Source: Clostridium sp.
GTDB lineage: Bacteria > Bacillota > Clostridia > Lachnospirales > Lachnospiraceae
Reading direction: 5' to 3'
Assembly (NCBI GenBank): GCA_023664605.1
Contig: JAMPFF010000012.1
Location: forward strand, 1-64,000
Length of the DNA stretch: 64,000 nucleotides
The notes under the pieces were generated by a model. The model saw only the letters and a program-made list of their open reading frames with translations, did no database searches and was not told the origin of the DNA. Both the position numbers and the translations under genes were made by a program. Of this stretch, positions 7,226 through 53,958 are shown one piece after another (positions within the stretch are counted from its first letter, which is position 1; each line of letters opens with the position of its first letter).

Positions 7226-8326
7226 ACCATACTTCTCTAACAATTCGGCCCATTTCTCCAAATAGTTCCGCATCAGTCTGTTTAATTCCGGAACATTCTC
7301 TTTTGTCAATTCCATCTCTAATAATGCCTGTATCATCATATTCCAGCCATCCGTTCCCTCGACAACATAGGAATTATTGCGTATATTAGGAAATAATTGG
7401 AGCGTTATTTTCTTAAAAAGATTCAGTTCCTCTTCGGATATGATATCTCCTCTGGCAATCAGCATCCTGATACTCATCTTAAGGCCCCACCCGTAAAACA
7501 TATATTCCAGTTCCTTATAATACTTCTCAAGCAATCCTCTTTCTTCAAAATCTTTTACAATATGCAGCCACACCTGAATATTATCAAACTTCTTATCATC
7601 CCAGCTGCTTCTCATACTACTGTTTGGAGACTGAAAATAGCAGTAAAGTTCTGCATATATTAAAACATGTTTCCTTTCATATACCCGAACCGGTAATGTA
7701 AAAGAGGGTTCTTCACAAATTAAATGTTCCGCAAAGCGAATATGATTATCCTGTATCATATGTAAACGATATATTTTATTCCAGCACCCCAATCCGCAGT
7801 CATCAGTACAATACATCAGAAATGTCTTTTTATCCTCGTCATCCTCATCAAATTCCCTTATTTCACATTTTATTTTTTCTTCTATCCCTGTCGCAATGTC
7901 CGTTCCTTCCATATACTTATCCGGCATATCCGGATTTATTTCCGTTACTTCTTCAAATTGAAACTCCACCACATCTGCCGCATGCTTTACGGCTATGCGG
8001 TATAATATCTCCATAGCATCCAGTTTAAGCCAGTCATCCGCATCACAGAACATAAGATACTCACCGCCGGCATATAACACTCCGACATTCCTCGCCCCCC
8101 CCTGGCGTAAATTTTGCTCAAGCGGGATGACTATAATATTATCGGAGTATCTTTTTTCATACTCCATCATTAAGGACAGCGTAGCGCCATTGTCTGTCGA
8201 AGCATCATCCACAAGGATAATCTCTATATTTTCCAGCCCTATTGTCTGTTTCAATATAGATTCCATACACCTGTCCAAATACTCCGCCGCATTATAACAT
8301 GGTATCACTACGCTTATCTTTTTCAT
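7205..8326 (-). CDS. GT2 family glycosyltransferase
   Basis: A 373-residue GT-A enzyme. It starts with the family signature SVVIPCYNAAEYL, has DDAST at about residue 40, and the metal-binding DADDW at about residue 96. The C-terminal 200 residues are helical and have no recognised domain. It transfers a sugar from a nucleotide donor; the acceptor is unknown. It lies directly downstream of csrA behind a terminator-like hairpin, and an AAGGAG site precedes the ATG. Codons around residue 76 (QGGARN) include a run of eight G residues. A slip of one base there would truncate the protein near residue 80, so this gene could be phase variable like poly-G glycosyltransferase genes in other bacteria. 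Confidence 0.85.
   Translation of the reverse strand: MKKISVVIPCYNAAEYLDRCMESILKQTIGLENIEIILVDDASTDNGATLSLMMEYEKRYSDNIIVIPLEQNLRQGGARNVGVLYAGGEYLMFCDADDWLKLDAMEILYRIAVKHAADVVEFQFEEVTEINPDMPDKYMEGTDIATGIEEKIKCEIREFDEDDEDKKTFLMYCTDDCGLGCWNKIYRLHMIQDNHIRFAEHLICEEPSFTLPVRVYERKHVLIYAELYCYFQSPNSSMRSSWDDKKFDNIQVWLHIVKDFEERGLLEKYYKELEYMFYGWGLKMSIRMLIARGDIISEEELNLFKKITLQLFPNIRNNSYVVEGTDGWNMMIQALLEMELTKENVPELNRLMRNYLEKWAELLEKYGSEWIVI
8095..8102 (-). repeat. G8 homopolymer inside the GT2 gene
   Basis: Eight C residues on the plus strand, eight G on the coding strand, in the codons for QGGAR. The present length keeps the gene open. Gly-Gly-Ala-Arg-Asn is close to a normal GT2 motif, so the tract may be incidental. 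Confidence 0.9.
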
Positions 8327-25159: not shown

Positions 25160-26122
25160 TCACCATTCAGGGGACATCCAGCCGGAATATTCCATAATGG
25201 ACATATTCTGCGCCTGCTTGTCCGACTGGAGCATCTGCCGTCTGTATTCTCTGGGCGACTGTTGCATCAGGCGGAAAAAATAACGGTTATAGCTGGAAAC
25301 AGACTGGAATCCTACCGCCTCCGAGATGCTTAAAATAGAATCGTCCGTACTGCAGAGCAGGCTGCACGATTTCTGGATGCGGGTATTATTGACATAGTTT
25401 AAAGGCGAAATTCTCATAATGGAGTTAAAAATCCGCCTGAAATGCGTCGGGCTCCAATGGCACAAATCAGCGAGAAATTCGATGCTGAACTGACGCATAT
25501 AGTTATTCTCAATATAATCCAGTGCGGGAGCGATGGAAAGCGGACTTGCCGAATCGGAAAATCCCTTGTCCGGTTCGCCGTCTGCCTCTTCCGCCTGGGA
25601 TTGTATACGGTAAATTTCAATATAAAGAGACAATAACAGTCCCTTTACCGAGAACTGGTACCCTAATCTTTCCGCTTTCAACTCTTTTAAGATAACGTCA
25701 AGGAGCTGATAGACGGTGGGATATTCATCTTTATTCAGAATATATTGAAAATTTTTGAAAAAATAAGGCGTCAGGTCATAGTTTTCCCATGTGGAGGGCA
25801 AAGAATGCCTGAACAGCTCTTTCGGGTCTATATAGATATACGACCATTGGCTCGCCGTTCCCGGATTACTGTATGTGGTATGCGGCACATTACGGGGAAT
25901 AATCGTAACATCCCCCCCCTGGAAAGGAAAACGCTCTCCATATAATTCCATTGTTCCCCCCTCCGAATGGCAGATACCGATTTCCAGACAATTATGGAAA
26001 TGGAGCCTTTCACTCGGTTTATCCGAAATTTTCCAATGCTCTCCGGTAAGCAGCAGAATTGGAAAATGCGGCGGAAGATAATAGTTACGGTATTCTGTTA
26101 TTGCATTTGCAGGTTTTGACAT
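25160..26122 (-). CDS. AraC family transcriptional regulator with cupin domain
   Basis: About 320 residues. The N-terminal half is an AraC-type cupin (EIGICHSEGGTMELYGERF; GGDVTIIPRNVPHT). The C-terminal half has two helix-turn-helix motifs (FSIEFLADLCHWSPTHFRRIF and ILSISEAVGFQSVSSYNRYFFRL, read in parts). It probably activates the rhamnogalacturonan genes on either side in response to an oligosaccharide. Start: ATG at 26122, with GGGGA eight bases before it; an ATG five codons upstream (26137) is also possible, its Shine-Dalgarno lying inside a strong hairpin. The coding sequence contains a G8 run near codon 70. Confidence 0.88.
   Translation of the reverse strand: MSKPANAITEYRNYYLPPHFPILLLTGEHWKISDKPSERLHFHNCLEIGICHSEGGTMELYGERFPFQGGDVTIIPRNVPHTTYSNPGTASQWSYIYIDPKELFRHSLPSTWENYDLTPYFFKNFQYILNKDEYPTVYQLLDVILKELKAERLGYQFSVKGLLLSLYIEIYRIQSQAEEADGEPDKGFSDSASPLSIAPALDYIENNYMRQFSIEFLADLCHWSPTHFRRIFNSIMRISPLNYVNNTRIQKSCSLLCSTDDSILSISEAVGFQSVSSYNRYFFRLMQQSPREYRRQMLQSDKQAQNMSIMEYSGWMSPEW
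25912..25919 (-). repeat. G8 homopolymer inside the AraC gene
   Basis: Eight C residues on the plus strand, eight G on the coding strand, within the codons for FQGGDVT of the cupin domain. At the present length the gene is open. A one-base slip would remove both DNA-binding motifs. Confidence 0.9.
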
Positions 26123-26140
26123 ATTTATATTCCCCATTCT

Positions 26141-36462: not shown

Positions 36463-36498
36463 AAAGCCCTTGGAAACATTCTGTTTCCAAGGGCTTTT
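36463..36498. terminator. Bidirectional terminator between His-rich gene and pilus operon
   Basis: A perfect 16-bp stem (36463-36478 with 36482-36497) and a three-base loop, with A-run before and T-run after. It sits between convergent genes and can end both transcripts; on the minus strand it closes the five-gene pilus operon. Confidence 0.88.
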
Positions 36499-36499
36499 A

Positions 36500-38101
36500 T
36501 TAATTGTCCTGATTCCGCATACACCGCACAGTGACGCGGTTGGCGCCGCCATAGGTACAGGTGAAAAGCGTCAGGCTGTATCCGGCTCCGGTCATCTCTT
36601 CTAACGCTTCCGGGGCAAGCACGTCCACCGCGTCCACGGTATAGCGGTATACAGTGCCGTCCATATCCGTAAACAACACTTCGTTTCCTTTTTCCAGCTT
36701 CGAGAGCATCCCAAAATGATACGGGTAGTTGTGGGCTGCGATCACCAGATTATCCTCATCTGTCGAACCGTAGTACCGACAGGGCGCGATTTTTAACCTT
36801 TCATAATTCCATCTGTCCATAACCGGCAGCTCTAACTGCAGGCACGGCACGCTGACATATCCGATATAGTCATAACCGTCGATTTCTTCCGCCGGGTCAG
36901 CGTTGCTTTCACCGGCGCTTTCACCGATATTTATATGAACTTCGGGCTGGCTGTTTTCTATCGTATCTTTTACCTTTACAAGCGCCGTCTGCGACATATC
37001 CTGCGCGGCGCGCGCTTCGCGCCTGTTCCATAAAAAGAGGCTGAGTCCTGACAATATAAGCAAAACGCCTATGATGATATTTGCCGGAACGCTTCTTTTT
37101 GGTCTGCCCATGCGACGCGCTATCCCAAACAGAACCATTGCCGCGCCGCTGAGCGCCAATACGGGAACGGGCCAGTTCATCTGCCCGGTCTGGGGCAGTT
37201 TCGTCTTTATTTCCACTTCCTGCGAAAGCGGCATCCATGGCGCGGGTGTCTCCGCGTATGCGGTTTCCGCCTCCCAGTACGGGTCGGGGTCGGGATCTGG
37301 GTCTGGGTCGGGATCCGGGTCTGGATCGGGGTCGGGGTCGGGATCAGGATCCGGGTCCGGGTCAGGGTCAATCGTTATCATCCTTAGGGAAAACTTGCTG
37401 CGGGCATCCACATCATACACATAATCCCCATTTTCCAGAAGCGGCACCGACACCAGAAACGGATTTAACGGTTCATAGCCCTGTGACGCTTCGCTCTGGC
37501 GGATCAGATACACGCCTGTCGGCAGATTTTTAAACACTACCTTGCCGTCTACATTTTCTTCTATATAATAATAGCCGTCCAGCTTATTTTTTTCATGCTT
37601 CTTTTGTTCCGTGCCATTGGTCTGGCTGAAATTTTCCGGGTTGTCTTGGTCTTGGTTGTCCTTGTCTTGGTTTTCCTGCTCTTTTTCGTACTCCGCTTCG
37701 ATGTTCTGCACATACGCCGCCAGTCCGGCTGCCAAATCAGCGGATTGTATGTCGGTCAGTTCTCCTCCATAATCGACAAAAGGCTCTGTCCAGCCGAATT
37801 TGTAACGGATGCGTCTTTCTTCGCTTTGATATTCCACAATCTGTCCTACCCGGTAGGCTTTTAAGACTCCACCGATGACGGCTTCGCCGTTATACTTCAT
37901 TTCTACCGTGATAGAACCCTTGCGTCCGGCGTCAGGACGCGGAAACGCCTCTTCGCCCTCCCACTGCGCGCGGACAGTAAGAGGCGTATGAGAAAAAGAA
38001 ACAAAAAGGCATACTGCGAGCGCAGCGGTCAGAAACCTGACTGCCGTGTGTCCGACGCTATGCGCGCATACGCGTTTTCTTTTCTTCCATCTATTTCCCA
38101 T
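36500..38101 (-). CDS. Pilin-like LPQTG protein fused to a sortase domain
   Basis: A 533-residue fusion. Order: signal peptide (about 20-45, cleavage near VRAQ); a pilin-like beta domain with GKVVFKNLPTGVYLIRQSEASQGYEPL, similar to an E-box region; a (Asp-Pro)15 rod (245-274); the sorting motif LPQTG at 302-306; a hydrophobic segment and basic RRMGRPKR; a second membrane segment (about 338-358); and a C-terminal sortase (about 405-533) with His457 in IAAHNY, Cys515 in TLFTC and Arg522. One protein thus carries both a sortase substrate motif and a catalytic domain. It follows the class C sortase gene and ends the pilus operon. It may be the pilus base and its own cell-wall anchoring sortase. 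No frameshift is evident. Confidence 0.82.
   Translation of the reverse strand: MGNRWKKRKRVCAHSVGHTAVRFLTAALAVCLFVSFSHTPLTVRAQWEGEEAFPRPDAGRKGSITVEMKYNGEAVIGGVLKAYRVGQIVEYQSEERRIRYKFGWTEPFVDYGGELTDIQSADLAAGLAAYVQNIEAEYEKEQENQDKDNQDQDNPENFSQTNGTEQKKHEKNKLDGYYYIEENVDGKVVFKNLPTGVYLIRQSEASQGYEPLNPFLVSVPLLENGDYVYDVDARSKFSLRMITIDPDPDPDPDPDPDPDPDPDPDPDPDPDPDPYWEAETAYAETPAPWMPLSQEVEIKTKLPQTGQMNWPVPVLALSGAAMVLFGIARRMGRPKRSVPANIIIGVLLILSGLSLFLWNRREARAAQDMSQTALVKVKDTIENSQPEVHINIGESAGESNADPAEEIDGYDYIGYVSVPCLQLELPVMDRWNYERLKIAPCRYYGSTDEDNLVIAAHNYPYHFGMLSKLEKGNEVLFTDMDGTVYRYTVDAVDVLAPEALEEMTGAGYSLTLFTCTYGGANRVTVRCMRNQDN
37281..37370 (-). repeat. Hexanucleotide repeat encoding (Asp-Pro)15
   Basis: Fifteen 6-base units of the form GGRTCN (plus strand), with third-position variation. 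Loss or gain of units keeps the frame and would change the length of the Asp-Pro rod of the pilin-sortase fusion. Confidence 0.92.
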
Positions 38102-38149: not shown

Positions 38150-39016
38150 TCATTCCGGCTCGTTCCTTTCGTTCCTGGCGCGCTCTTTCTTCCGCATATT
38201 CTTAGCGCGGCACGCGCGGTACACGAGCGCAATCAGAAACAGTACAAGCATCGGCGCCGCCGCTGCCGAAACAACTAATGGCGTCTCAATCTGTACGGCG
38301 TCCGCGGTGATGCGGACCGTTTCCTGTGCCGTCTGCTGCTCTATCCTCCTGCCCCGCACCAGCATCCGATGGGAATTGACCCCGTACGGCGTACAGGTCA
38401 CCAGGGTGCATAAATCCTCGCCCGGAACGATGGCAAGCGCCTCCGTTTCTTCCGGCAGTACCACAAGGATTTGGTCTATTTCATAGGTCATCACTTCGTC
38501 CAGCACGCAGAGCAGGAATATATCCCCCTCCGCCATCCTGTCCAAATCGGTAAAAAGCCTTGCGCTTGGGAGCCCTCTGTGTCCCGACAATACGCTGTGG
38601 ACGCTTTCGCCGCCCACCGGAAGGGAACTTCCCTCCAAATGTCCTATCGCCGTCTGCAGAACGCCCTCCGACGTCCCATGATAAATCGGCAGCCGACAGT
38701 CTATCTTCGGTATTTCGATATATCCCATAACGCCCTGTCCGCCGATGTTAAGCTGCGCTTCATACCGTTCTTCCCATGCCTCCGGCAGTTCGACCGCCCC
38801 GCCGATTTCGGCAAGTTCCTCATTATAGGCATGAGCGTCCGATAAAATTTTCATATAATCCTCATCATCCAGAGACGCCGTCGCCTCGGCATATCCGGTA
38901 ATCGCACGGCTCTGGTGCATCTGATTCCAGCGGTCGCTCACTGTCGGATAAAGAATCAGTGAAAGCCCCGCCAGAAAAATCAATATAAAGATGACCGTAG
39001 TCAGATGCCTGCGCAT
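38150..39016 (-). CDS. Class C (pilus-polymerising) sortase
   Basis: A 288-residue sortase. It has an N-terminal membrane segment (8-26), the catalytic domain with His146 in VLSGHRGLP, Cys208 in TLVTCTPYGVNSHR and Arg217, and a second hydrophobic segment (about 248-268) followed by a basic tail, typical of class C enzymes. It joins pilin subunits by isopeptide bonds between the LPXTG threonine and a pilin lysine. AAGGAGG precedes the ATG. It lies between the major pilin gene and the pilin-sortase fusion gene, with 42 and 48 base gaps. Confidence 0.93.
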   Translation of the reverse strand: MRRHLTTVIFILIFLAGLSLILYPTVSDRWNQMHQSRAITGYAEATASLDDEDYMKILSDAHAYNEELAEIGGAVELPEAWEERYEAQLNIGGQGVMGYIEIPKIDCRLPIYHGTSEGVLQTAIGHLEGSSLPVGGESVHSVLSGHRGLPSARLFTDLDRMAEGDIFLLCVLDEVMTYEIDQILVVLPEETEALAIVPGEDLCTLVTCTPYGVNSHRMLVRGRRIEQQTAQETVRITADAVQIETPLVVSAAAAPMLVLFLIALVYRACRAKNMRKKERARNERNEPE

Positions 39017-39058: not shown

Positions 39059-40753
39059 TTACTCTTTTTTAGCGTCCGCGCGCCTTTTGACGATGAAGAA
39101 AGCTGCCGCCGCCAGCATCAGCACAACGCCGCACACATAGAAAAGAGTCGTACCCATGCCGCCCGTAGCCGGTAAGAAAGTACCGTCGCTGTTGGCAACG
39201 TGCGCGATGACTTCCTGCGTGGTATAGCCATCACCCGTCATTATGCTTCCCGTTGTCGTGTCGATGACCGCGTTAATCACGACCGTTTCAGGGTCTTTTA
39301 ACAGGTTATAGCCTGCGGGCGCTTCTACCTCAATCAGATAGTAAGTGCCGTTTGCCAGACCCGCAAATGAAGCTGCTCCGTTATTATCTGTCGTCACTAC
39401 CGTGATACCGCTTGTCGTTAAATCCGGCACAGTCGGCGTACCATCCGCAGCATCGGCGGATTTTACCCATTCTATATTTGTCAGATTAGCCGGGTCGGTA
39501 TTAGCGTCTGTCCCTGAAAAAGTTCCCTTATAGTATTCCGCGTCATTTCCCGTATTTCTTTTCAGGACAAACTTCGCGCCCGGCAATTTCGCGCTCATAT
39601 CCGTCTCATCCTGCACTTTTTTATACTTATCGACGATAACGCTGGAGCTTAACGTCCTGACAATCTGCGGCGTAGATTCCGCCAGGCTGTCAGGGTCGGT
39701 GCCGTATTCGAGTTTGGCTTCATTTTCGGATATCACGTTTACCGCGTCTTTATTGACCTTGGCGGTATATGTAATCGTGATATCATCACCGCTGGCATAC
39801 TTATAGTTGTCCCCGCTTTTTTCCAGCAAATCCAGCGACAGGTTAAAACCGCCGCCGCTTGTACCGGCTACCGGATCCGTATAGCGGATTTTATTGCCCG
39901 TCAACGTACCGCTTTCGGTTGTCTCTGTAAGAGTAACCGTCTGCGTGCCGATTTTGACGGTCACGTCCTTTTGGAAAGTCAATCCTTTCTGCATGGTATC
40001 TGCCGCACGGTATATATAGGTCGCCGCGCCGGAAGTGTCCGGCACTTTTCCCGTAATCGTATAAGTAATCGTCTGCCCTACCTGTACGTCTTTGCCCGTC
40101 ACCGGATCGTCGCCGGTAAACGTCTCCGTATCGATAGCCGAAATCTCTTTTTCAAAAGGCGTATCGTTCTTATCGCTGATGGTTGCGTCGGGCGTCGTAG
40201 TCGTCAAATTACAGAGCGCCTGCGTCGCTTCCCCATTTTTGCTCAATACGAAATAGTAGCCTAACGCCAGGTTTTGCGCGGTTAAACTTGTCTGGCTCTC
40301 CCCGGCGGGTCCCATCGAAAAATTCGCAGAAATGCTGCCGACGTTAGCCTTTAAATGGTTGGCAAAACCAGCCGCGCTGAACGCGCTTTCCTCAATGCTC
40401 ACCACATACTCGTCCGCGCCCGCCGCTTTTGTCAGAATCAGCCCGTTACCCGCGGTATCCGCATAATTTTTTACAATCGTATACCAATCGGAAGTTCCCG
40501 ACAGGGAATAACTGTAAGAAGTCGTACCTCCCAAAGTCCTATAGGTGACGTCAAAAATCTTATAGCCGTAATAAGTCACCCCGTCCTTGGGATTACTGAC
40601 GGTGATGCTTCCTTTTCCCGCGTCATCTATGGATGACTGTTCCGTTGACGTCGCCCGCGCCGTTAATGGCAGCGCCGCGCAGACTGCCGCCGCCAGCATG
40701 ATACATGCCGTTAATGCGGCAAGCTTTTTTCTTATGTGTCCTTTTTGTTTCAT
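39059..40753 (-). CDS. Major pilin, SpaH/EbpB family, LPATG anchored
   Basis: A 564-residue surface protein. It has a signal peptide (KKLAALTACIMLAAAVCAALPLTARA, in parts), an N-terminal pilin domain, a middle domain with YTYTAKVN-like strands, and a C-terminal Cna-B/SpaA-type domain. The E-box is GTYYLIEVEAPAGYNLL, needed for the internal isopeptide bond. Sorting signal: LPATG at 527-531, a hydrophobic segment and KRRADAKKE. The pilin-motif lysine is perhaps in ISDKNDTPFEKEI. Start: ATG at 40753 with AAAGGAG; the longer frame has no ribosome site. It is the backbone subunit polymerised by the neighbouring class C sortase. Confidence 0.92.
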   Translation of the reverse strand: MKQKGHIRKKLAALTACIMLAAAVCAALPLTARATSTEQSSIDDAGKGSITVSNPKDGVTYYGYKIFDVTYRTLGGTTSYSYSLSGTSDWYTIVKNYADTAGNGLILTKAAGADEYVVSIEESAFSAAGFANHLKANVGSISANFSMGPAGESQTSLTAQNLALGYYFVLSKNGEATQALCNLTTTTPDATISDKNDTPFEKEISAIDTETFTGDDPVTGKDVQVGQTITYTITGKVPDTSGAATYIYRAADTMQKGLTFQKDVTVKIGTQTVTLTETTESGTLTGNKIRYTDPVAGTSGGGFNLSLDLLEKSGDNYKYASGDDITITYTAKVNKDAVNVISENEAKLEYGTDPDSLAESTPQIVRTLSSSVIVDKYKKVQDETDMSAKLPGAKFVLKRNTGNDAEYYKGTFSGTDANTDPANLTNIEWVKSADAADGTPTVPDLTTSGITVVTTDNNGAASFAGLANGTYYLIEVEAPAGYNLLKDPETVVINAVIDTTTGSIMTGDGYTTQEVIAHVANSDGTFLPATGGMGTTLFYVCGVVLMLAAAAFFIVKRRADAKKE

Positions 40754-40787
40754 TGCCTCACTCTCCTTTGTGTGTTGTTGTGTTTCG

Positions 40788-41423
40788 TTACCAGACCGGC
40801 CCGATGCCGTTTGCCCCCCACAGGCGCAATACAATCCTGCCGATGACATCTTCTTTTGCAATACATCCAATCTGTGCGTTCCTGCTGTCCGCGGAAATAT
40901 CTCTTGCATCCCCTAAGACGAAATACTCTCCTTCGGGAACGCTGCATGGCAGTTCTATACTACAGGTTCCTGCGCTTCTGTCTGTCAGATACGATTCAAA
41001 CAGAGGCGCCCCGTCCACATAGACCATGCCGTCCGCGGCAATGTCCACCTGACTGCCCGGTTCCGCAATCAGGCGTTTTACCAATATTTTATTGTGGTAC
41101 CAAAAAGCGATGATATCTCCCTGACGCCAGTCCTGCCCTTTCAGCGCCGCCACCATTTCCCCTTTCTCCAATGTTGGCGACATGGAGTTTCCGTAAATAC
41201 GAAATACCGGCATAAAGAGAGTTCCCGCCAAAACCGCCGCTGCGGCGATGATAAGAATCATGCCGCGGATGCGCGCGCCGAAAGTCCGTTTCCGGGACGG
41301 CGCCGCTACTTCTTTCTGCGCTGCCATTGCAGCTGTACTACCCGTATCAGGACTTTGCACAGCATGGCGGGCGTCATTTTCTTTTGCTGCTTTTTCTCCC
41401 GTTGTTTTCTCCTCCCTCCCCAT
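40788..41423 (-). CDS. lepB: Signal peptidase I of the pilus operon
   Basis: A 211-residue S26 signal peptidase. It has one membrane segment (about 54-74), the catalytic Ser80 in GNSMSPTL, Lys116 in LVKRLIAEPG and the GDARDISADSR box. Pilus operons often carry their own signal peptidase, which is needed to mature pilins. The first 118 bases overlap the end of the giant surface-protein gene in another frame, so translation is likely coupled to it. No strong ribosome site precedes the ATG at 41423, and a later start is possible. The long basic N-terminus (about 50 residues) is unusual. Confidence 0.88.
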   Translation of the reverse strand: MGREEKTTGEKAAKENDARHAVQSPDTGSTAAMAAQKEVAAPSRKRTFGARIRGMILIIAAAAVLAGTLFMPVFRIYGNSMSPTLEKGEMVAALKGQDWRQGDIIAFWYHNKILVKRLIAEPGSQVDIAADGMVYVDGAPLFESYLTDRSAGTCSIELPCSVPEGEYFVLGDARDISADSRNAQIGCIAKEDVIGRIVLRLWGANGIGPVW

Positions 41424-44400
41424 AAAACTGCATTGGCGGATAGTATCATCGCGCCTGTTATATAGAACGGAAGGACGCCAACCCCTCCGGTAATCGGGAA
41501 TTTCAGACCGGGGTCGTCGTATACCGGCAAGACCTCGTCTCTCCTGCTAATCTTATAAAAGCTTTCGTCTAACTTAAAGCCTGTCGGCGGGTCTAACTCC
41601 CGCACATAATATCCGTCGTCCTCCAAACCTGTCCAGAGGATTTCACCATCGGCGTTGGTAACACTGAAGTCTTTCAGGTACAATTTCATCGCCGCGTCGG
41701 AGCTGTCGCCGTAATCCGCTGTCAGCATCGACTGTAAAACGGAGCCGTAGCGTTCCAGCCACTCGAAACGTTCGCCGTCCTTTTCAGTGATAGCGGATAA
41801 ATCTATCATCTGCGCCACATCGGTGGTATAAAGCCCAAAAAGCGCGTCCGAAAGGAATAATATCTTTTCTTTGTCTTTATCGTCCGTCGGGTCGTAGCCC
41901 TTGCTTCTGCTGTCCATCTTGAACAACTGCCCCGTCCAGACTTTACTCTGGTTGGTGACGACAATGACCGGTTCGTAAAGCTCGTCATATACAAATTCCG
42001 ACGTCAACTGTCCGTTTACTTTCACCGTAAACAGGGGCAGATCTTCCGGCGCCGTAACCTGCTTTACCACATAGGAAGCGCCGTCCTCCCAGAAGAAGCT
42101 CTCGTCGCCGCTTTGCTCTTTCCACCATACTACTTCCGGTTCCAGATTGCGGATATTGCGCAGTTCCCTGTTATTTTCACTCTGTCCCGTTCCTACCGTG
42201 ACACTGAAACGAAGCTGCTGCGCCGCAATCGCGGTGCCGTCCTCTCTGACGCCTTCTTCCTTATCTATCGTAAAGGTAAATTCCTGCGGCTCTTTTGTAT
42301 TGACATACGGATTCTGCCCATAGTCAATCAACTTCTCGTACAGTATCGGAATCGCCGGAATCTGTACGCCCGTACGGATGGAAGAAGCCTCCATCGCCGA
42401 AGCGTTACTGAAACGCTCAAAGCGGTACCCGAAAGAGTTCCATGCGCACTGTCCGGGCGTCGGCGTTTCTACGCCCTCCGGCGTCACTCCGGTCTCTATC
42501 GCCGCCCGGTATTGGACGACGATGGTCCGCCCCGCTTTCATTAAGGAGCGGTAAGCGTCGGCGTTCGCCGCGTCGAACACCGTGTTGGGGTCTTTTATTT
42601 CAATACGGAAAGAACGCGCTTTTGTGATATCCCCAAATTCTTCCGCGGTTTTCCAGCCGTTCGCCGCCAGACTATCCGCCGTCGTCGTATTCCATCCGGC
42701 GTCGTCCGCCTGGAAGAGCCAGTCGCTCGACGCTACGCTCGTATTCTCGCTGTATAGAATCTGGTAGCAGTCCTTGGGAAGTTCCCGCAGCTTATCTTCG
42801 TCTATGTCCGTGCCGTCTCCCGCGCCCACGTCAGCGGTATCGCCGGCGTCGGCGAAAGCGGAAGCAGAGGCGGTATCGGTATCGGCGTCATAATAGTAGA
42901 GTTCCAAATGGAAACCGTCCTTAGCGGGCGTCACCGTAAAGTCGGAATTACGGGGAACTTTGCTGTTAAACGGCATCTTGTCCCCCACATACGGCAGAGT
43001 GTTTATGATAACCATATTCTTAATGGAATACAGCCTGTCCGCCTCGCTCTGCACCGTATCGCCCGCATTCGCCACATGGTTTAGTACGCTCAACGTATAT
43101 GTCAGCGTATTCTCGGTATCCTGCTGCAAAATCTTATTTTCCCGGGTGAGGACGTCGCGGATATCGTCCGAAATTTCCGGTTCGGTCTCTTCCTCGCCCG
43201 CTTTTTTATTCTCTTTTACTTTTATCCATGCCGCCGTGGACTGTCCGGTGCTGACGGACACATAGCCTAACGCCATAATGCCCGCCGGCGTATCCGTATC
43301 GCTTGCGACAGGATCCCCCGCGCTATCGATGGCAATACCCTCGCTCACATCCGCTTTCGTATAAGGCTGCGCCGGTTCCATCACAACGCGGTTCGCATAG
43401 GAAGAACGGGTCGAGTCCTGACTGTGGTACATATCATAGCTTGTCCAATAGCTTAACTTCCTGCTGTTTTCCACCACTTTGCCGTTTGCAAAAGAGGCGG
43501 GACCGACGCCGTAAATCTTATCCCCGGTAAAATCAAACTCCATCGTTTCCGCGGGATGCCCGTCGCCGAATACATCCTCTTTATAGAAGTAAACCCGCAC
43601 GCCGCCAAAGACTTCCGCATAGCATCCGCTGCCTTCTTTCATTGCTATGTCTCTGCTTTCGGCAACCTGCACTGTCTCGGAGCCGATTTTGAGTTTATCC
43701 CTGTCCGTTTTCTCCACCGGTTCGCCGTTTTCCAGCTTCGTTTGTTCCGTAAAGCGCGTTATGGTAAACGTCCTATCGTAATTGATTCCCATTTGAGAAG
43801 TCATCTTCACTTCGCCGTTAAATACATAAGGCCACTGCACGCTGTCTTTTACGACATAATCCGTCAAAGAGTTCGTGCCGCCATTGACAAGTTCCGCTTC
43901 CCACTGCACTATATGTTCTAAGGCGGCGCCGTCCTGCGGGTCATACGCAGTCTCGCCCTGCGCCACTTTCTTCTGCACGGGAGCGCCTTTCGTCACGCCC
44001 GGTTTCGCCTCTTCACGCGTCATGGTCGGCGCGGACGCCACCCACTTGCCTGTATCGGAGGGGTTAGGATGCAAAAAGCCGCACTCTGCAGCAATCTCGT
44101 CGCTCTCCCAAAACTCCGCCATACCCTCGTTGGAATTTTGATAACTGCTTCTATGCGCGTCCACGCCCTCTACCTGCGTAATCTGTCCCACACGGTAAGA
44201 ATCGTCTACGGGCATCGCCGCGGATAAATCCACTTCGTCCGGCGTATTCTGATAAGCGTCCACCTCGAAACGGACTTCCATCGCAAGATATTGTCCCGGT
44301 CTTAAGAAATATTTTCCCGCCACCCTGTCATAAACATCTGTATAAGTATCTCCAAGCGCGATATCTAACTCCGCTTCATTCGGCCTTTGTCCGTCCGCTT

Positions 44401-47400
44401 CCTGTCCGCCGTCCGGATAATAATAGGAAACTTTCACGCCAATGATATCCACCCTCCGAATACTGCCGGGCGGGGATTCGTCCGTTACCGACACATCCGT
44501 CACATTCCAGTTCGGCAGATTGGTCGTCACATAGTATTTCGGCGGAGCTTTTAAGGTAAATCCCTCCGGAATCTTGATATGGACGGGATTGAGGAACAGG
44601 TTGCTCTTGCCGTGGTTATAAATGACAACATAATATTTCACAAGGCGCGTTTCTTCATCACTGTTCGCATACACATACCCATACGGGTCGCCGTCCGTGC
44701 CATAAACGCCGGTCTTTAAAAACACCTGCGTCGGTCTGGCTATCTGATGTAATATCCTGCCGGTAAGGCTCTGGTAATGGACAGTATTATATATATTGTC
44801 GTCCGCCGCCGCAGCGCTGTATGCGTTCCAATCCTCCTGCTTTTGCGGGAACTGCAGGGTGACATAGATATATAAGGTCCTGTTATAAGGTATGGTAAAA
44901 TCCGCAAACGAGAGCTTATACTGCCCTGCCGCCTTTTCCACGCCGTCCGCCGTCTCATCCACGAGGTCTATGCGGGCAAAACCCGCACCGCCCGGATCAT
45001 AGGCTTCATATTCCGCGCTCTGCCCTTTTGGGGCAACCCGCTCTTTTAAGGCGTACGACACCTGTACGTTCTCATTTAACTTCCATGCAAACTGCCCGTA
45101 TGTGCAAGGCAGCATATCGTATAATTCTCCCTCTTTTAACGTATAATCCCCAATCCAATATTCATCAAAAGACAATCGGTAGGTGACGGACGTTCCCACG
45201 CCCAGATACGTCATATTCTGGTCTTTCGCCACCTCTTCCTGCTTCGTGCCGATTGCTTCGGGATTGGTGATAATCTCCTTTTTCAAAACTTCCTGCCGAT
45301 AGCCGCCGCTGTATATCGCATACAGGCGGGTAGAGAAGTTATTGCTTTTATAATTATTGGCGTACAGCACGGAACTTGCCGACGGACGCGTCTGTCCGCC
45401 GTCCGCTTCCTGTACGGCGTTCGGTTCCATCACATATGTCAATAACTGATATTTACGCGTACCCTTGGGGCTTATGCTTTTCTCATACCATCTAAGCTGC
45501 GTCTGTTCATCGCCCTGCGTGGACGCCAGCGAAACGGAATCGACATAAAAATCCGCCTCCATGCCGCCCAGCCACACGCCGGAGAGCTGTTCTGCGTTTT
45601 CCGTAGGTTTTATCATATAATATGTCTTATCTTTAAAAACAAAGGTATCATATCCCTTATCCGCAAGCGCGGCATTTAACTCCACGGGCGCCAGCAGACA
45701 TTGGTTCGTATCTAACGTCTGCATAAAGGGCAAATCCTCATGGACAATGCTGTTGCCGTTCATATATTCCATCTTGTACCATAGGACAATGCCCGGGCAT
45801 ATCCATTGCGCCTCATCCGCCCCTACCAGCAGTTCCTCCCCCGTATTGCCATCGATACCCGTAACGTTCATCTTCAATGTGGACGTATTGTAATTCGTAT
45901 CCCTGACCGACTTTGCCACATCATAAAGAGAGCCGTTTTCATTCTTCAGGGTAAAGACAGCCTGCGCCGTAGGCCGCCTGTTATCCGACGTATCGAACAA
46001 ATGATATGTATGCTGGGAATCTGCGCTCAAATAGCGGTGTCCCTGCATTTCATCCGTCTTGACCGTAGCCTGATAGGAGCCTATCGTCCAAAGATAGGTT
46101 TTCCCCTCCGCATCCGTATACGGTCCCACTTCCTTACTCCTTGCCGCGTCGGTGACATTCCATGTAATCTTATAAAGCCCCGTCGGAACCAGATAGCCGT
46201 TTTCTTCTAACGCCGCCTGAATATTCGCCTCCAGCGTGTCTTTGTCCTCTGAAAAAGGAATCGACTGCGTCTCCCCGTTATTGACTTTAATAGTCAACCC
46301 AACAGGCTTTCTTGCCGTGGACGTATCTGCACCGCCGTCTCCCGTCTCCGTCCCGTCGTCCGTATCAACCGCCGCCTCCCATTCTACCGTCAGGGTAAGC
46401 GTCGCCTTAGACGCCGGGCTAATGTCTCGATAGGTATTAAGAAGATTCTCCTCCGTTGTGGAGACAGCGTCCGTTCCGGTATGGAACACGCCCAGTTTAT
46501 AGGAGCCGCCCTGATAAAGCGCCGCATCCTGAATCACTATTGTGTCCGTCTCTATATATTCGCTCTCCCCCAGAACGATATCCGCCATCTGTCCCGCCGA
46601 AAGATAGAGATAACCGTTATCGTTCACTACCTCGTCCGTAATCTTATAGAGGCTGACACGGGAAGAGTTGGGTCCCTTATTTTCCGCGACAAAAGAGATA
46701 TCCATCTCCATGCCGCGCCCTCTTTCTTTCGGAAAATCATATCGGCGGTAGAGTTCCACGATACCCTCGGTGGGCGTTAAGAACTCATAGGCAGTAATCT
46801 CCTGCGTCTCGTCGGGTTCTGAAAACTGGTAATAAAAGACAGCCTTGATCTTATATTCGATTTTCTGCCCCAAGTCCTGATAAAAATCATAGTCCTCCCC
46901 AATAAGGACGGCGGCGTTGGAATAATCGGCATAGCTTAACCAGAGAGAGTAAAGAAGTCTATTGTATATATTGCCGTTTGCATCCGTAATAGAATAGCTA
47001 TACTCATAAACAAGTTCCCTGCCATCCTCACTGATGGAAATAACCTCTCCTTTCGAAGGGCTGAGCCTCGCCGCGACGGTGTCCGCATCCGCCCAGTATA
47101 ACCCCTCCGGCAGCGTAACCGTATAATGAAGTCGGATGTCGGTGACTGCATCCTTTCCATACTTCGTGGAATTTAACGCCGCGCCATCCCTATATACAGT
47201 CTTGGGGGATATCCCTCCATGCCGGTCTTTAAATTTCGGTTTATGCGTCGCAGTGTCAATCGTAGCCTGCGTGGTTCTCTTATAGCCACTAGCGGTCAAT
47301 TCATAGAGGTTTCGCTTCGTTCCCCACGCCAGCATCATATAATTAACGTCGCCGGAGAAGCCGCCGAATACCTCGTCGTCCTCATCATCGCCGCCAGCCT

Positions 47401-50400
47401 GCGTATCGTCCGGTATCTCCCCCCAGACGCAGAGCCCGCCGCCCCAGACCCCTATCGGGTACATCACCGATTCGCTGTCCGTAAAGGCGACGCCGTTCCA
47501 TGTCAGGGTCGCGCCCGCAGGCAGGGCAAAAGAAACGCAGTAACAGCCCGATATCCTGTCATATTCAATCTTTGCCAGCTTAGAGTATTTCGTATTATTG
47601 ACGACATACTCTATCTGATGCGTACCCGTGCCAATACCCTCAAACTGCGGGTCGGACGCCTCGAAATACACACGGAAAGGCGTCTCTAAATTGCCCGTAC
47701 CGTATGTCTGCGCCGTCAGGTCGAAAGCAACTCCCTCCCCCGTCAAAAGGCGGTAGGCGTCCTCTTTATACTCCGGCTCGCCGGAGCCGGATGTTTTACG
47801 GAGCGTTATCGTCATCTTCCCCACGTTAGGATTGGTATAGGTCAGGGAACGCATGGGTTTTCCCCTGCCGGAAACATCTTCATCCCCCTCTTCCAGCCCC
47901 GTGTTCTCAAACGCTTTCTTAATGGCGGGCGTACCGTTTGCGCCAAACAGCGCGTTTGCCTCTTTGCGCGTGGTAACGCCATTGACGACGGACAGCGTCG
48001 GGCAGTCCGCAAAAGCGCGCGCGCTTAAGGTAATCTGTCCGGGATTTGCTGCCGTAACGCTCTCCAAATCAGCCGCCGCCATGACCGCATGTTGGATAAC
48101 GCCTGTTACTCTATAAGTGCGGGCATACCTGCTATCCACGTCCGCCATCATCTCCTGCGTGGTGGTAATCGCCGACGGTATATAAAGCGAGGTAACGCCG
48201 GGCGGACAGTATGCGAGAGACGCCGTCCCCGCCGTCGGATTCAGGGCATAGAGAACCCCCTCCTGCGTTACATAGTAAGCCCCCTCCAGCGCATTGACCG
48301 GATAGGGCGCGTTAGGAAAGACTTCCTGCCCCGCCTCCGGCTCTAAGATAACCACGTTGGGTCCCACAAAATTGACTTCCGAATACTTCTGCCAAAACGT
48401 CTGCGCCGTCAAATGGTTGACCGCAGTATCGATATAGAGCGTGGACGACGACGATATACCGCGGTCTCCCAGCAGTACGGACCAATCCGCGCTCCCGCCG
48501 TCCGCTTCCGCCATAGCGCGATCGTCATCCCCCCGAAACCAGACCGTATTCACATAAGAGTGCACAACAGAAGATGATATATAATACGGCACAATGCTGC
48601 TGTAACTGCCGCTGCCGCTTTTTAACGCCGGCGCCATGCCCGTATGCAGCGTCGTCAAACCCTTACAATTCCGAAATGCCTCGCTAACTATCGTACAGGG
48701 CGCATCCGGCAGATATAAATTCTCTCCTAACTTCTCACAGTAATAAAAAGCCTCTTTGCCAATCATTTTGACGCCGTCGGGAATCCGCAAATCTCCGGTC
48801 AGGCTGCGGCAATTATAAAATGCCCTCTCTCCTATCTCCGTCAGCGCGGCGGGCAGTTTTATATCTCCCGCCAATCCGCAGCCTTCAAATGCTTTCGCAC
48901 CGATACGCTTGACGCCGTCGGGAAAATTGACGCCGCACTCCGCGCTTGGATTGATACCAGCTAGCTTATTAGCATATATAAACAAGCTGTCGGGTATCTC
49001 TTCTAAGGTTTCCGGCAGATGCACTTCCACCAGCTCATTCTTATAAATCGCGCCCGCATCGATAAGCGTAATCCCCTCTTTTGCCGTCAGCTTCGTCACA
49101 TACTGCATACCCTGAAAGCCCATCTTATCCGTGATATGTACAAGACCTCCCGGAATTTCCACTTCCTTTAAATTCCTACAGGAATTATACGCATCCGCCG
49201 GAGCCTCTATATCCGTTAATTCTTCCGGGAAATGGATGGTCTGCATACCGCAGGAATCAAAGGCACGGCTTCCCAACTGCAGCTTCCTCGTATTTCCGCT
49301 ACCGTCCGCAAAGACGACGTCGGTTATCTTGCCAGCGCCATATTTAAATGCCTCATCATCAATGATTGTCAGGCTCTCCGGCAGGTGCATCTTCCCGCTT
49401 AACGCACCGCAATAGTAAAAAGCGCTTTTGCCTATCCGCGTAATCCCCTCCGGGATATTGACAGCATACTCTTCGTTCGGATTGATGCGGGCAAGGTTCG
49501 TAGCATATGCAAACAAACTGTCGGATATCTCCCCTAAACTGCCCGGCAGATGTACTTCCACCAGATTATTCGGATAAATCGCACCCGTATCGACAGCCGT
49601 AATGCCATCGCTTATCGTAAGGTCGGTTATGTTTGTCATGTTCTGGAAGCCCATATCTGTCGTGATATGCTCAAGACCTTTGGGAATCGTCAGTCTCGTC
49701 AGCTTATTACAACCCTTATAGGTATTTTGATATTTGCCGTCGGAAACGACCCCGGTTAGCGACGTAAGGTTTTGCGGAAACACTATCTCTTCCAATAGTG
49801 AACAGTAGCTAAAACTCTCTGTTCCAAAGGTAAGCTCTCTCTTGTCTCCGCCCTCGGCAAAGACAATCTCCGTCACCTTAGTGCAGAAAGTAAAAGCGTT
49901 TGCACCTATCTCCGTCAGGCTTTCCGGCAGACACACTCTACCGCTTAACGCGCCGCAGTTACGAAAGGCGTCGCTGCCTATCCGCGTAATCCCCTCCGGG
50001 ATATTGACAGCATACTCTTCAGTCGGATTGATGCGGACAAGGTTTGAAGCTCCGAAGAACAAGCCGTTGGGTATCTCCTTTAAGCTGTCCGGCAGATGCA
50101 CTTCCACCAAGCTCCTATTCTTTGCAGAATCTTTATTACTATTAAAGAGGTTCTCCTCGATAGCCGTAATCCCATCGCCTATCGTGAGGTCTGTTACGGC
50201 TGTCATGTACTGGAATCCCATATCCGCCGTGATAGTCCCAAGGCTTCCCGGAATCGTCAGTTTCGTCAGCTTATTACAACCCTTATAGGTATTTTGATAT
50301 TTGTCATCGGAAATGACCCCGGTTAGCGACGTGAGATTTTCCGGAAACACTATCTCTTCCAATGACGAACAGTTCTGAAAACTATAGGCGTCAAAGGTAA

Positions 50401-52752
50401 GCGCGCCGGTTTTGCTTTTGGCAAAGACAAATTTCGTCACTTTATTGCAGTTATAAAAAGCTTCTTTGCCTATCTGCGTCAAACCCTCCGGCAGATACAC
50501 TATCCCGCTTAACTCCTGGCAGTTATAAAAGGCTTGGCTGCCTATCCGCGTAAGCGCCGACGGAAGATTGATATCACGCTCATCGGTCGGATTGATGCGG
50601 GCAAGTTTAGTAGCGCCGGAAAACAATTTGTCGGGTATCTCTTCTAAGTCGTCCGGCAGATATACTTCCTCCAGATTATTCGCCCAAATCGCGCCCGACT
50701 CGACAGCCGTAATCCCATCGCTTATCGTAAGGTTGGTTATATATTGCATATGCCGGAAGCCCATATCTGTCGTGATAACAGGTCCAAGACTTCCCGGAAT
50801 CTTCAGTGTATTCAGATTATAACAACCGCTGTAGGTACCGGCAATAGCCCCTTTCAACGATGTAAGGTTTTCCGGGAACACTATCTCTTCCAACAGCGAG
50901 CAGCCAGTAAAACTAGAGCTTCCAAAGGTAAGCTCCCTGTTTTCTCCGCCCTCGGCAAAGACAATCTTCGTCACATTACTACAGCCATAAAAAGCGGATG
51001 CGCCTATCTCCTCTAAGCCCTCCGGCAGACGCACTGTCCCGCTTAACGCTTTGCAATACTGAAAAGCGTTTGCCCCTATCCGTTTAACCCCCGCCGGGAT
51101 ATTGATATCGCATTCCGGGGTCGGATTGATGCGGGCAAGGGGCGCATTAGAAGCAACGTAAAACAAACTGTTGGATATCTCCTCTAAACTCTCCGGCAGA
51201 TTTACTTCCACCAGGCTGCTCTTAGGCAGCGCGTTCCCCTCGATAGCCGTAATGCCCTCTCCCACCGTAAGTTTTTCTATAGGCATATACTGGAAGCCCA
51301 TCCCCGTCGTGACAGTCCCGAGGCTTCCCGGAATCGTCATTTCTTTTAGGGACGTGCAGGCATTACACGCATTGCTATAAACTGACAGGGACGTCAGTCC
51401 TTGCGGGAAATGGAGCGATTCCAGCGCGCTGCAGTAAGAAAACGCATTGTAGTCAATCGTCAGTTCCCTGGGACTGCCGCCGTCTTGTATATATATCTCG
51501 GTGATAGCCGTACACCCTGAAAAAGCAGTATTGCCAATCCTGGTAACGGTCGTTGGCAGGGTGACTTTCTCTATCGTCGTGCAGTCCCTAAAAGCTCCGT
51601 TTCTAACGACGGTTACGCCCTCTTCTATCACGACTTTTTTTACATCGAGGTCTTTCCACGCGCTCGCAGAGTTGTCCATCGCGCCCGTGCCGCTTATGAC
51701 TAACGTCTCCGTATCGGCGTCGTATGTCCATGTGACGTTGGCGCCGCAGGTTCCGCTGTTCTCCGTGGCTTCTTCCGCCAGCGCAGCCAGCTTCTCTTTA
51801 TCGTCCGGCTCTGCGTCTTTCTCCGCTTCTACGTCTTTGTCCGCCTCTTCGCCATCCTCCGCGTCCCCGTCCGCGCCGTCCTCAACATCTTCGCCATCTT
51901 CCAGTTCGCCGTCTGCGGCGTCGGGGTCTTTGTCAGGGTCTTTTTCGGTGTTATCGCCGGGGGTGCTGCCTGTGTTGCCGTTCGGGTCTTTATCAGAGTT
52001 GGTGTCGGGGTCTTTGTCGGTATTGGTGTTCGGGTCTTTGTTCGTGTTATCGCCCGTATTACCGCCGGAGGTGTTGTCTGTGTTACCGCCGGAATTGTTG
52101 TCCGTGTTGGTGTCGGGGTTGTTGCTCGTATCGCCGCCGGGGGTGCTGCCTGTGTTGGTATCACCGCCGGAGGTGTTGTCGGTATTGTTATTCGTATTGT
52201 TGTCAGGGGTTTTGTCCGCACCGCCGCTGCCGGAGTTATCTGCACTGCTGACGGCGGCGACTGTGAATGCTGCCACGCTGGCGGTGGTATTCGGGCTGCC
52301 GGATGTGGCTGTGAATGTTGCCGCGTTGGCGGTGCTGTTAGCTGTGGTATTGAGGTTGCCGGATGTGGCTGCGAATGTTGCCGCGTTGGCGGTATTTGCC
52401 GCCGCAAGGGAAAGTGCATTAACGTCGGAGGTGTTGCGTTTAGATGTATTGAATTTAGACGTAGTAAGTTCAGGGGTATTAAGTACAGACGTAGTAAGCC
52501 CGGAAGTATTGAGTTCAGATATATTGAGTTCGGATGTATTGATTTTAAGCGTATCCGCGGCAGGAAAAATTGCAGGGGCTATTTTACCCCCCCCGAAAGG
52601 GAAACGCTGTGGAGTACGCTGTTTGCACTGACATGAGAAACCGCTCCAAAAGAGGCATAGACCACACCACAAGTAACCATCTCATTGGAGCATACCATTG
52701 AGACAGCCAGGATTACTGCAATTATCCTCAGAATACCTGTCTTGTATTTCAT
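41306..52752 (-). CDS. Giant LRR surface protein/pilus tip adhesin, out of frame at a G8 tract
   Basis: The first 55 codons (from ATG 52752, AAAGGA upstream) encode a signal peptide with cleavage near VVYA. The frame then ends at a TAG right after a run of eight G. One extra G (or two fewer) joins it to a 3,780-codon frame, giving about 3,815 aa. Domains in that frame: a 15-base repeat region (NTSEL-like), a Thr/Asn/Asp linker, BspA-type leucine-rich repeats (about 1,040 aa), a very long beta-rich stalk with repeated domains, a C-terminal Cna-B-like domain, and the anchor FPITGG, a membrane segment and a basic tail. It is the first gene of the pilus operon. Present state: phase OFF, or an assembly error in the tract. 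Confidence 0.85.
48640..51770 (-). repeat. BspA-type leucine-rich repeat region with five super-repeats
   Basis: Short LRR_5 units of about 23 residues (for example IGANAFQYCKALSGTVRLPEGL, near consensus IGxxAFxxCxxLxxxxLPxxL) are grouped in super-repeats. The landmark MGFxxM (MGFQYM, MGFRHM, MGFQYM, MGFQNM, MGFQGM) recurs five times at intervals of about 535-570 bases. Such regions mediate adhesion in other bacteria. Copies differ by substitutions and small indels that keep the frame. Confidence 0.88.
52425..52550 (-). repeat. 15-base tandem repeats in the N-terminal region of the giant gene
   Basis: About eight degenerate units coding for Asn/Thr-Thr-Ser-x-Leu or similar (NTSELNISELNTSGLTTSVL). 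Further Thr/Asn/Ala repeats follow to about 52250. Multiples of three keep the frame. Confidence 0.75.
52587..52594 (-). repeat. G8 tract that sets the reading frame of the giant adhesin
   Basis: Eight C on the plus strand. With eight G the signal-peptide frame reads TCG GGG GGG GTA AAA TAG and stops. With nine (or six) it continues into the giant frame. It is directly after the signal peptide, a typical place for a slipped-strand contingency switch. Confidence 0.88.
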
Positions 52753-52824: not shown

Positions 52825-52853
52825 ATTTTACATGATTCCAAAATATTTTACAA
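52825..52853 (-). promoter_or_regulatory. Promoter of the pilus operon
   Basis: On the minus strand TTGTAA (52848-52853), 17 bases, TAAAAT (52825-52830), with ATG directly before the -10. It lies about 70 bases upstream of the giant gene's ATG and would serve all five pilus genes. Confidence 0.55.
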
Positions 52854-52905: not shown

Positions 52906-53958
52906 CTATTTTCTTGTATTTGATTTCAGCATTTCTATTTTATCGAGAAGTTCTTTGATAGTTTTCTCATTTTCGGCAAGTTTTGCGTCCCGTTCGGCAA
53001 GTTTGGCGTCTTTTTCGACAATAATCTTCTTATCTTCTGCAATAATCTTTTCCCTTTCCGCAAGCATCTTCTTATCTTCTTCGATAATCTTCTTGCTCTC
53101 CGCAATCTCTCTTTCATACGCCCGTATATCCAGACAATATTCTTCACGGTCACGGCAGCGCTTAAGAATCTGCTCTTCGGCGCTTAACTGAAAAATGGTT
53201 TTGGATGCTTCGTTAATGTAGGGGTCTTTCGCTGCTAACATCTTGATCTCCTCCCATGTGGCGGCTTTAAAGAGCTTAGCCCAGTCATAAATATGATATT
53301 TTTTGTCGTCATCGGTTGCAAGTTCTATACGAGATAAGTCTACCACACTTAAGGTCAGGTTGTCACTATAAAGATGATGATTTTTTACGTTAAGAAGTTT
53401 ATAAGTGGCATAAAATTCAGGATAATCATCAAACAGCGTGTAATCCAGAAAGCCGATATGTATGACGGGTTTAACCTCTGCATAATCCTGACCGTGGTTC
53501 AGCATATCAAAAGAGCGGCAGAGATAACTGACGGAGCGGTTGGACCAGATGAGCCTGCCCGTCACCTGCATTTCAAGATTAATACGGGAGCGGTTATTTA
53601 ATTTAACATTAATGTCCAGACGAAATTCCTTGTTTTTAATGGATTCCCCTAAGATGATAGGATTTGTGATTTCCACGGATGCGATATCTTCTTCATGAAG
53701 ATGGAGAAGTGAACAGATAAGACCGTGCAAAGCCTTGTTGTTAGTCTGGAAAACCGCCCTGAACATATAGTCGTTAGTCATGCTGTAGGGAATAGCTCCG
53801 TGGGCGTCCTTAAGTAAATCGTTTGGAAGTACGTCATTTGGAAGTAAATCATCTGGATTAAAAATTGAGGCTGCATTTTTAAGATTTGTTGTTTTTGATT
53901 TGTCATTTTTTGATTCATAGATATGTCTCCTTATGTGGTGTAAGATAACAGAAAGCAT
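52906..53958 (-). CDS. Rpn/PD-(D/E)XK nuclease family transposase-like protein
   Basis: A 350-residue protein as the longest frame. The Rpn-type nuclease core starts near residue 60 (MTNDYMFRAVFQ) and includes the active-site Asp in KEFRLDINVKLNN and Glu-x-Gln in INLEMQVTG, with QDYAEVKPVIHIGFLDY. The C-terminal 90 residues are a coiled coil of short repeats (KKIIEEDKKMLAEREKI, then AERDAKLAENEK). Rpn proteins are DNA endonucleases that promote recombination and occur in many copies in gut Firmicutes. The start is unclear: the best ribosome site (AAGGAG) serves an ATG in another frame, whose short frame ends overlapping the ATG at codon 60. Translation may begin at 60 by coupling. Confidence 0.82.
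   Translation of the reverse strand: MLSVILHHIRRHIYESKNDKSKTTNLKNAASIFNPDDLLPNDVLPNDLLKDAHGAIPYSMTNDYMFRAVFQTNNKALHGLICSLLHLHEEDIASVEITNPIILGESIKNKEFRLDINVKLNNRSRINLEMQVTGRLIWSNRSVSYLCRSFDMLNHGQDYAEVKPVIHIGFLDYTLFDDYPEFYATYKLLNVKNHHLYSDNLTLSVVDLSRIELATDDDKKYHIYDWAKLFKAATWEEIKMLAAKDPYINEASKTIFQLSAEEQILKRCRDREEYCLDIRAYEREIAESKKIIEEDKKMLAEREKIIAEDKKIIVEKDAKLAERDAKLAENEKTIKELLDKIEMLKSNTRK
53816..53860 (-). repeat. 15-base tandem repeat near the start of the Rpn gene
   Basis: Three units (53816-53830, 53831-53845, 53846-53860) with about 70-80 percent identity, encoding the NPDDLLPNDVLPNDLLK region upstream of the nuclease core. Confidence 0.75.

Follow-up and report, generated by a model that had tools for sequence, protein, structure and literature searches.

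A run of eight G on the minus strand of the stretch of Clostridium sp. DNA analysed here (64,000 nucleotides, contig JAMPFF010000012.1, positions 1 to 64,000; hereafter the window) is, with a probability that we put at about 0.8, a contingency switch working by slipped-strand replication slippage and placed in the first gene of a sortase-dependent pilus operon. Of the readings considered, phase variation has the best support: the tract lies at the joint between a signal peptide and a giant leucine-rich repeat (LRR) adhesin, Lachnospiraceae bacterium UBA7143 carries a tract of another length at that joint, tract length decides in parallel genes of the genus whether they are in frame or split, and two near-identical stretches of DNA at another locus differ in tract length only. 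The preliminary description of this DNA had called phase variation likely, and these observations support it. The features on which the argument rests are as follows.

52587..52594, minus strand: G8 tract, the proposed slippage switch, with TAAAA following it (sequence, tract counts, shuffles and split table)
52579..52752, minus strand: signal-peptide ORF of 57 codons, with its stop just past the G8 tract (sequence and translation)
52825..52853, minus strand: promoter-like site TTGTAA-17-TAAAAT, 5' of the signal-peptide ORF (consensus match only)
41306..52672, minus strand: giant frame of 3,788 codons, putative pilus tip adhesin (translation, Pfam matches and dN/dS)
40788..41423, minus strand: signal peptidase I, overlapping the 3' end of the giant frame (PF10502; 64% identity over 142 aa to UBA7143)
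39059..40909, minus strand: backbone pilin with GramPos_pilinBB and SpaA domains and LPATG near its end (Pfam; synteny in UBA7143)
38150..39016, minus strand: pilus sortase, presumably of class C from its place (PF04203; 75% identity over 266 aa to UBA7143)
36500..38101, minus strand: fusion of an ancillary pilin (LPQTG) with a second sortase domain (Pfam and comparison with UBA7143)
36463..36497, listed on the plus strand: terminator-like hairpin of 16 pairs, just past the operon end (hairpin search)

The minus strand does hold exactly eight G at 52587..52594, as the preliminary description had it. The 57-codon ORF starts at ATG 52752 and stops at 52581-52579; its N-terminus (MKYKTGILRIIAVILAVSMVCS...) resembles a Sec signal peptide, and AAGGA lies a few bases 5' of the ATG. 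The giant frame opens at 52681; taken from TTG 52672, it continues stop-free for 3,788 codons to 41306. No signal peptide was seen at its start by eye or with the hydropathy script, a simple and crude one that was used for all signal peptides in place of a trained predictor. The two frames are offset by -1; the frame arithmetic of the preliminary description, in which the signal peptide and a surface protein of 3,780 codons without an export signal of its own stood in different frames, is therefore right. Its statement that the frames meet exactly at the G8 run is correct in placing the tract at the joint and slightly too strong otherwise, as the frames overlap by ~100 nt (52681-52579) with the tract inside. 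Within this overlap the G8 tract is the obvious slippable element, and its length sets the reading frame of the gene, as in a slipped-strand phase-variable gene.

Two other roles for the tract were considered. That of a promoter spacer was rejected, as the tract shows more than two mismatches to TTGACA. That of an attenuator hairpin (GGGGG...CCCCT with a T-rich tail) was set aside: 2 terminator-like sites were found, against 2.1 in shuffled sequence, and the T-run is absent from UBA7143 by eye. Promoter-like sites number 4 in 1.2 kb on both strands, as compared to 1.6 expected. A gene for a PD-(D/E)XK nuclease family transposase (52906-53958) lies directly 5' of the pilus operon, and a search of a plasmid collection returned no match.

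The giant LRR protein is the first gene product of a sortase-dependent pilus operon. It contains BspA-type leucine-rich repeats (LRR_5, 11 stretches, E 1.6e-153 in Pfam), has a SpaA match near its C-terminus that falls slightly under the Pfam cut-off, and ends in FPITG followed by a hydrophobic stretch and a basic tail, in the manner of a sorting signal. The assignment of the operon is based on matches to PF16569, PF17802 and PF04203, on the LPATG, LPQTG and FPITG motifs and on synteny with UBA7143. The backbone pilin gene overlaps the signal peptidase I gene before it, and the ancillary pilin and second sortase, fused here, are two ORFs in UBA7143 (L001 20383-21645 and 21659-22357). The hairpin past the operon end, although listed on the plus strand, would also serve the minus-strand operon. 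From such operons in general, we infer that the giant LRR protein forms the pilus tip.

Under the proposed mechanism, replication slippage would alter the length of the G tract and thereby change the reading frame. A tract length that joins both frames would provide the LRR adhesin with an export signal and make it anchorable by the operon sortase (ON). With the tract out of register, as it is in this assembly (OFF), translation would stop within a few codons of the tract, yielding a short peptide in place of an exported adhesin. The long untranslated stretch would probably lower expression of the signal peptidase, pilin and sortases by polarity, so that the whole pilus would switch; that the downstream pilus genes should fall is argued by analogy with Bifidobacterium breve.

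By itself, a G8 tract is within chance expectation; its place and its kin are not ordinary. The window contains 3 runs of G8, as compared to 1.53 expected from dinucleotide shuffles, and 23 of 100 shuffles reach 3. The other two are in frame, at 8095-8102 within a family 2 glycosyltransferase (7205-8326) and at 25912-25919 within an AraC-type regulator (25160-26137). We claim no genome-wide excess of G8: scaling the window shuffle rate to 3.585 Mb gives ~86 expected, against 61 matches. In the strain's own genome 45 tracts have at least 8 G (30 G8, 14 G9 and 1 G10), and each was classed by whether it separates two ORFs. A split was called where a frame of at least 150 nt follows the tract and extends upstream of it by less than 100 nt, and another frame of at least 150 nt precedes the tract and ends within 100 nt of it; this rule was set only after the tract table had been inspected, and two tracts initially marked as split (L022 and L028) fail it. 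Clear two-ORF splits occur at 1 of the 30 G8 tracts, the one in the window, and at 6 of the 15 G9-G10 tracts (Fisher p = 0.0035). By Pfam, the six other splits include a CotH-kinase gene, a CDP-glycerol glycerophosphotransferase and a DUF4956 gene; two of the other three have a downstream piece that matches methyltransferases and the third an upstream piece that matches a methyltransferase start (the scan covered all pieces except those upstream in L032 and downstream in L030). In the CDP-glycerol glycerophosphotransferase gene (L013:2057-3437), the two pieces parted by a G9 tract, searched separately, match positions 6-224 and 230-366 of a single Pfam model that has 367 positions.

The assembly is a draft of 78 contigs, and the window G8 tract may be miscounted in it. 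A stronger form of this doubt is that the count is a homopolymer assembly or sequencing error and the true tract is fixed in frame, with no switching at all, which we regard as unlikely. Database lengths of G-tracts can differ from measured ones (Penno et al., PMC9187656), and all six G9 splits of the strain's own genome share a +1 offset, as a systematic error could produce. A preference for one ON length could also account for the shared offset. The window tract, at -1, differs from these six, and a miscount of this copy would still leave the tract a candidate switch. Error also leaves unexplained the tract at the same joint in UBA7143 and the genus-wide distribution of such tracts described below.

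Among named genomes, a relative of the giant protein was found in UBA7143 only, and the protein occurs in 2 of 77 genus genomes, the window's own and one (G024) that is apparently UBA7143. The two proteins are 57% identical over 2,886 aa, with dN 0.38 and dS 1.7 (near saturation), giving a dN/dS of ~0.22 for the giant frame. The whole operon is syntenic in UBA7143, with the pilin at 42% identity alongside the signal peptidase (64%) and sortase (75%). At the place equivalent to the window tract, directly after the signal peptide, UBA7143 has G10 followed by TAAAA, and its signal-peptide frame crosses the G10 in frame into an Asp/Asn/Pro-rich linker. Tract length thus varies between related copies, G8 in the window against G10 in UBA7143, in diverged flanks. 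A second break of the frame interrupts the UBA7143 gene ~0.5 kb past the tract and before the LRR region (L001 ~8190-8215), where the sequence is GA-rich and has no long homopolymer, and because of it this copy is not ON as assembled. UBA7143 supports the place of the tract and the change in its length, but does not offer a clean ON copy. The second break, together with the presence of the gene as an accessory in 2 of the 77 genomes, could also be taken to mean that the operon is being lost and that the G8 is a dead frameshift in a fixed loss-of-function allele. We consider this very unlikely: the giant gene does not look decayed, since its 3,788 stop-free codons are intact and constrained relative to UBA7143, the downstream genes are open, and the lesion falls in a tract of a length-variable class.

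Tracts also occur in the first genes of other pilus operons. Relatives of the operon sortase at E up to 1e-30 were found in 8 of 60 genus genomes, and six further pilus loci were read besides those of the window and UBA7143. Those of genomes G016 and G063, which are near-identical, have a G9 within an unbroken first gene of ~1,625 codons, and those of G064, G065 and G066 have no run of at least 7 G or C in the fetched stretch. The G026 pilus contig lacks the 5' end and falls outside the count, by which a tract lies in the first gene at 4 of the 7 pilus loci with a complete first gene, not all of them independent.

The window tract probably belongs to a genus-wide set of poly-G tracts. The string GGGGGGGGTAAAA (G8TAAAA) is found 119 times in 60 genus genomes, being present in 44 of them, as compared to 5 times for the reversed control; an assembly miscount does not explain this 119:5 ratio. 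In 148 genomes of the family's other genera the figures are 24 and 10. We read 115 of the 119 places, of which 111 are distinct by their 25-nt flanks and comprise 9 G8, 48 G9, 43 G10 and 11 G11 tracts. They are not copies of one cassette, an idea that was rejected, as they include promoter spacers besides intragenic runs. Among 44 rows with TAAAAT, TTGACA stands 15-20 nt away as an exact match in 10 (0 of 176 shifted tests) and with at most one mismatch in 14 (6 of 176), and 14 of the 111 tracts look like promoter spacers by this spacing. By a raw, uncontrolled count, 47 of the 111 are followed by at least 150 open codons in a frame that starts from the tract, one of which is also promoter-like, and the remaining 51 fall in neither class.

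Tract length is variable within this set. Copies that share flanks form 20 groups, one of which consists of two places within a single genome, and length differs in 11 and is constant in 9, copies of fewer than 8 G being invisible to the search. The rows that the 25-nt flank rule had set aside are the most telling and allow three closer comparisons. In the first (L071 and L067), 8,001 bp align with 0 mismatches and one gap, which is G11 against G10. In the second (L111 and L081, 97.5-99% identical), G8 stands against G10, and in the third (L045, L047 and L089) all copies are G9 at 96-97% identity. All such length-variant pairs are assemblies, so a miscount is possible for any single one. The tract of the first pair lies ~180 nt upstream of a 247-codon ORF (MEKYIDIHSHILPGIDDGS...), which we take to resemble a CpsB-type capsule phosphatase, and it may switch a capsule promoter. 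Several contigs end near tracts (places starting at 1, 1, 49 and 52), as either polymorphism or poor coverage of G runs could explain.

Of the 111 tracts, 6 have both a start resembling a signal peptide 90-260 nt ahead of them and at least 300 open codons behind; UBA7143, included on grounds of homology, brings the signal-peptide/poly-G loci to seven. Four of the seven are one amylopullulanase gene (L048/L145, L087, L090 and L115) with the layout signal peptide, poly-G, Gly-Lys. Its 140-nt upstream flanks are 89-95% identical and its 40-nt downstream flanks 70-97%, the downstream frame stays open for ~2,000 codons, as far as the sequence was fetched, and the one copy scanned (L087) has alpha-amylase, CBM26, CBM48 and FIVAR domains. 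Two copies with G9 (G068 and G065) are in frame, whereas those with G8 (G026) and G11 (G080) are split. A miscount leaves this G8/G9/G9/G11 series in four orthologues unexplained, and phase-variable starch use is a possible consequence of it. In G006, a G9 tract splits a further LRR gene.

These loci bear on the alternative that the two window frames are joined without any change in DNA. Long G runs can be slippery for both ribosomes and polymerases, and the -1 offset in the window is one that slippage on GGG-GGG codons could bridge, so that programmed -1 ribosomal frameshifting or transcriptional slippage would yield a fixed joined fraction. We think this quite unlikely. The seven loci do not share one offset: it is 0 in G068, G065 and UBA7143 (at the tract), -1 in the window, G026 and G080, and +1 in G006, and this variation speaks against a programmed frameshift because a programmed site should keep one offset. 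In addition, tract length differs on otherwise identical DNA in the G11/G10 pair.

With somewhat better than even confidence, we suggest that the genus has a poly-G phasome that spans the genome and comes in two architectures, one with tracts inside genes and one with tracts filling the spacers of TTGACA/TAAAAT promoters. We lean, to the same degree, towards an intragenic set that includes the pilus tip, the cell-surface amylopullulanase, an acyltransferase, the CDP-glycerol glycerophosphotransferase and methyltransferases. This wider proposal is more interesting and less certain than the window switch itself. If it is true, a gut commensal lineage randomises, cell by cell, not only its pili and surface glycans but also its access to starch. 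Lachnospiraceae are a main group of gut anaerobes, and their draft genomes would then list switchable surface genes as broken, while colonisation, phage sensitivity and starch use may differ from cell to cell within a clone. With the loci and tract lengths given here, switching can be tested in isolates and in existing reads.

The preliminary description had also remarked that poly-G switches are rarely reported in this group, which agrees with the literature as represented by titles and abstract starts. Judged on these, the matches listed for phase variation in Lachnospiraceae, Clostridia or Firmicutes contained no report of a poly-G switch in Lachnospiraceae, and neither did those listed for homopolymeric tracts in gut metagenomes. 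For Lactobacillus crispatus, a published study describes some strains with deletions in the pullulanase signal region, not a poly-G switch.

Simple-repeat phase variation is textbook in Gram-negative pathogens, and the Pil1 pilus of Streptococcus gallolyticus is sortase-dependent. The closest parallel to the window lies in another Gram-positive, B. breve UCC2003, for which Penno et al. (2022, PMC9187656) report G-tracts in the sortase-pilus genes bbr_0113 and bbr_1889. That precedent, the sortase-pilus operon headed by the giant protein and the abundance of such tracts in the genus are what the preliminary description had missed. In both organisms, poly-G separates a signal-peptide ORF from an LPXTG-type body in the first gene of the cluster and tract length decides whether the ORFs are joined; the window design is that of the known B. 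breve pilus switch, here in another phylum. For B. breve, Penno et al. report that transcript is lost past the short ORF, that the downstream genes depend on the tract and that pili become visible by microscopy once the frames are joined, although they note no direct evidence for the pilus proteins; in the window strain, by comparison, switching is deduced from sequence. The window also differs from what is described there (PMC9187656) in its BspA-type LRR body of ~3,800 codons, its operon with a signal peptidase and a fused pilin-sortase, and a tract followed by the genus-wide TAAAA. Pil1 (Danne et al. 2014, PMC3894217) is a further Gram-positive case of pilus-operon phase variation by repeat length; it differs in that GCAGA repeats lie in a leader peptide and act through transcription attenuation, whereas the window has poly-G inside the first structural gene. 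The wider pattern resembles the poly-G phasomes of Campylobacter and Neisseria, in which many homopolymer tracts lie in surface genes, both intragenic and in promoters. Those are Gram-negatives, whereas here the host is a member of the Lachnospiraceae and the candidates include a pilus operon and a surface starch enzyme.
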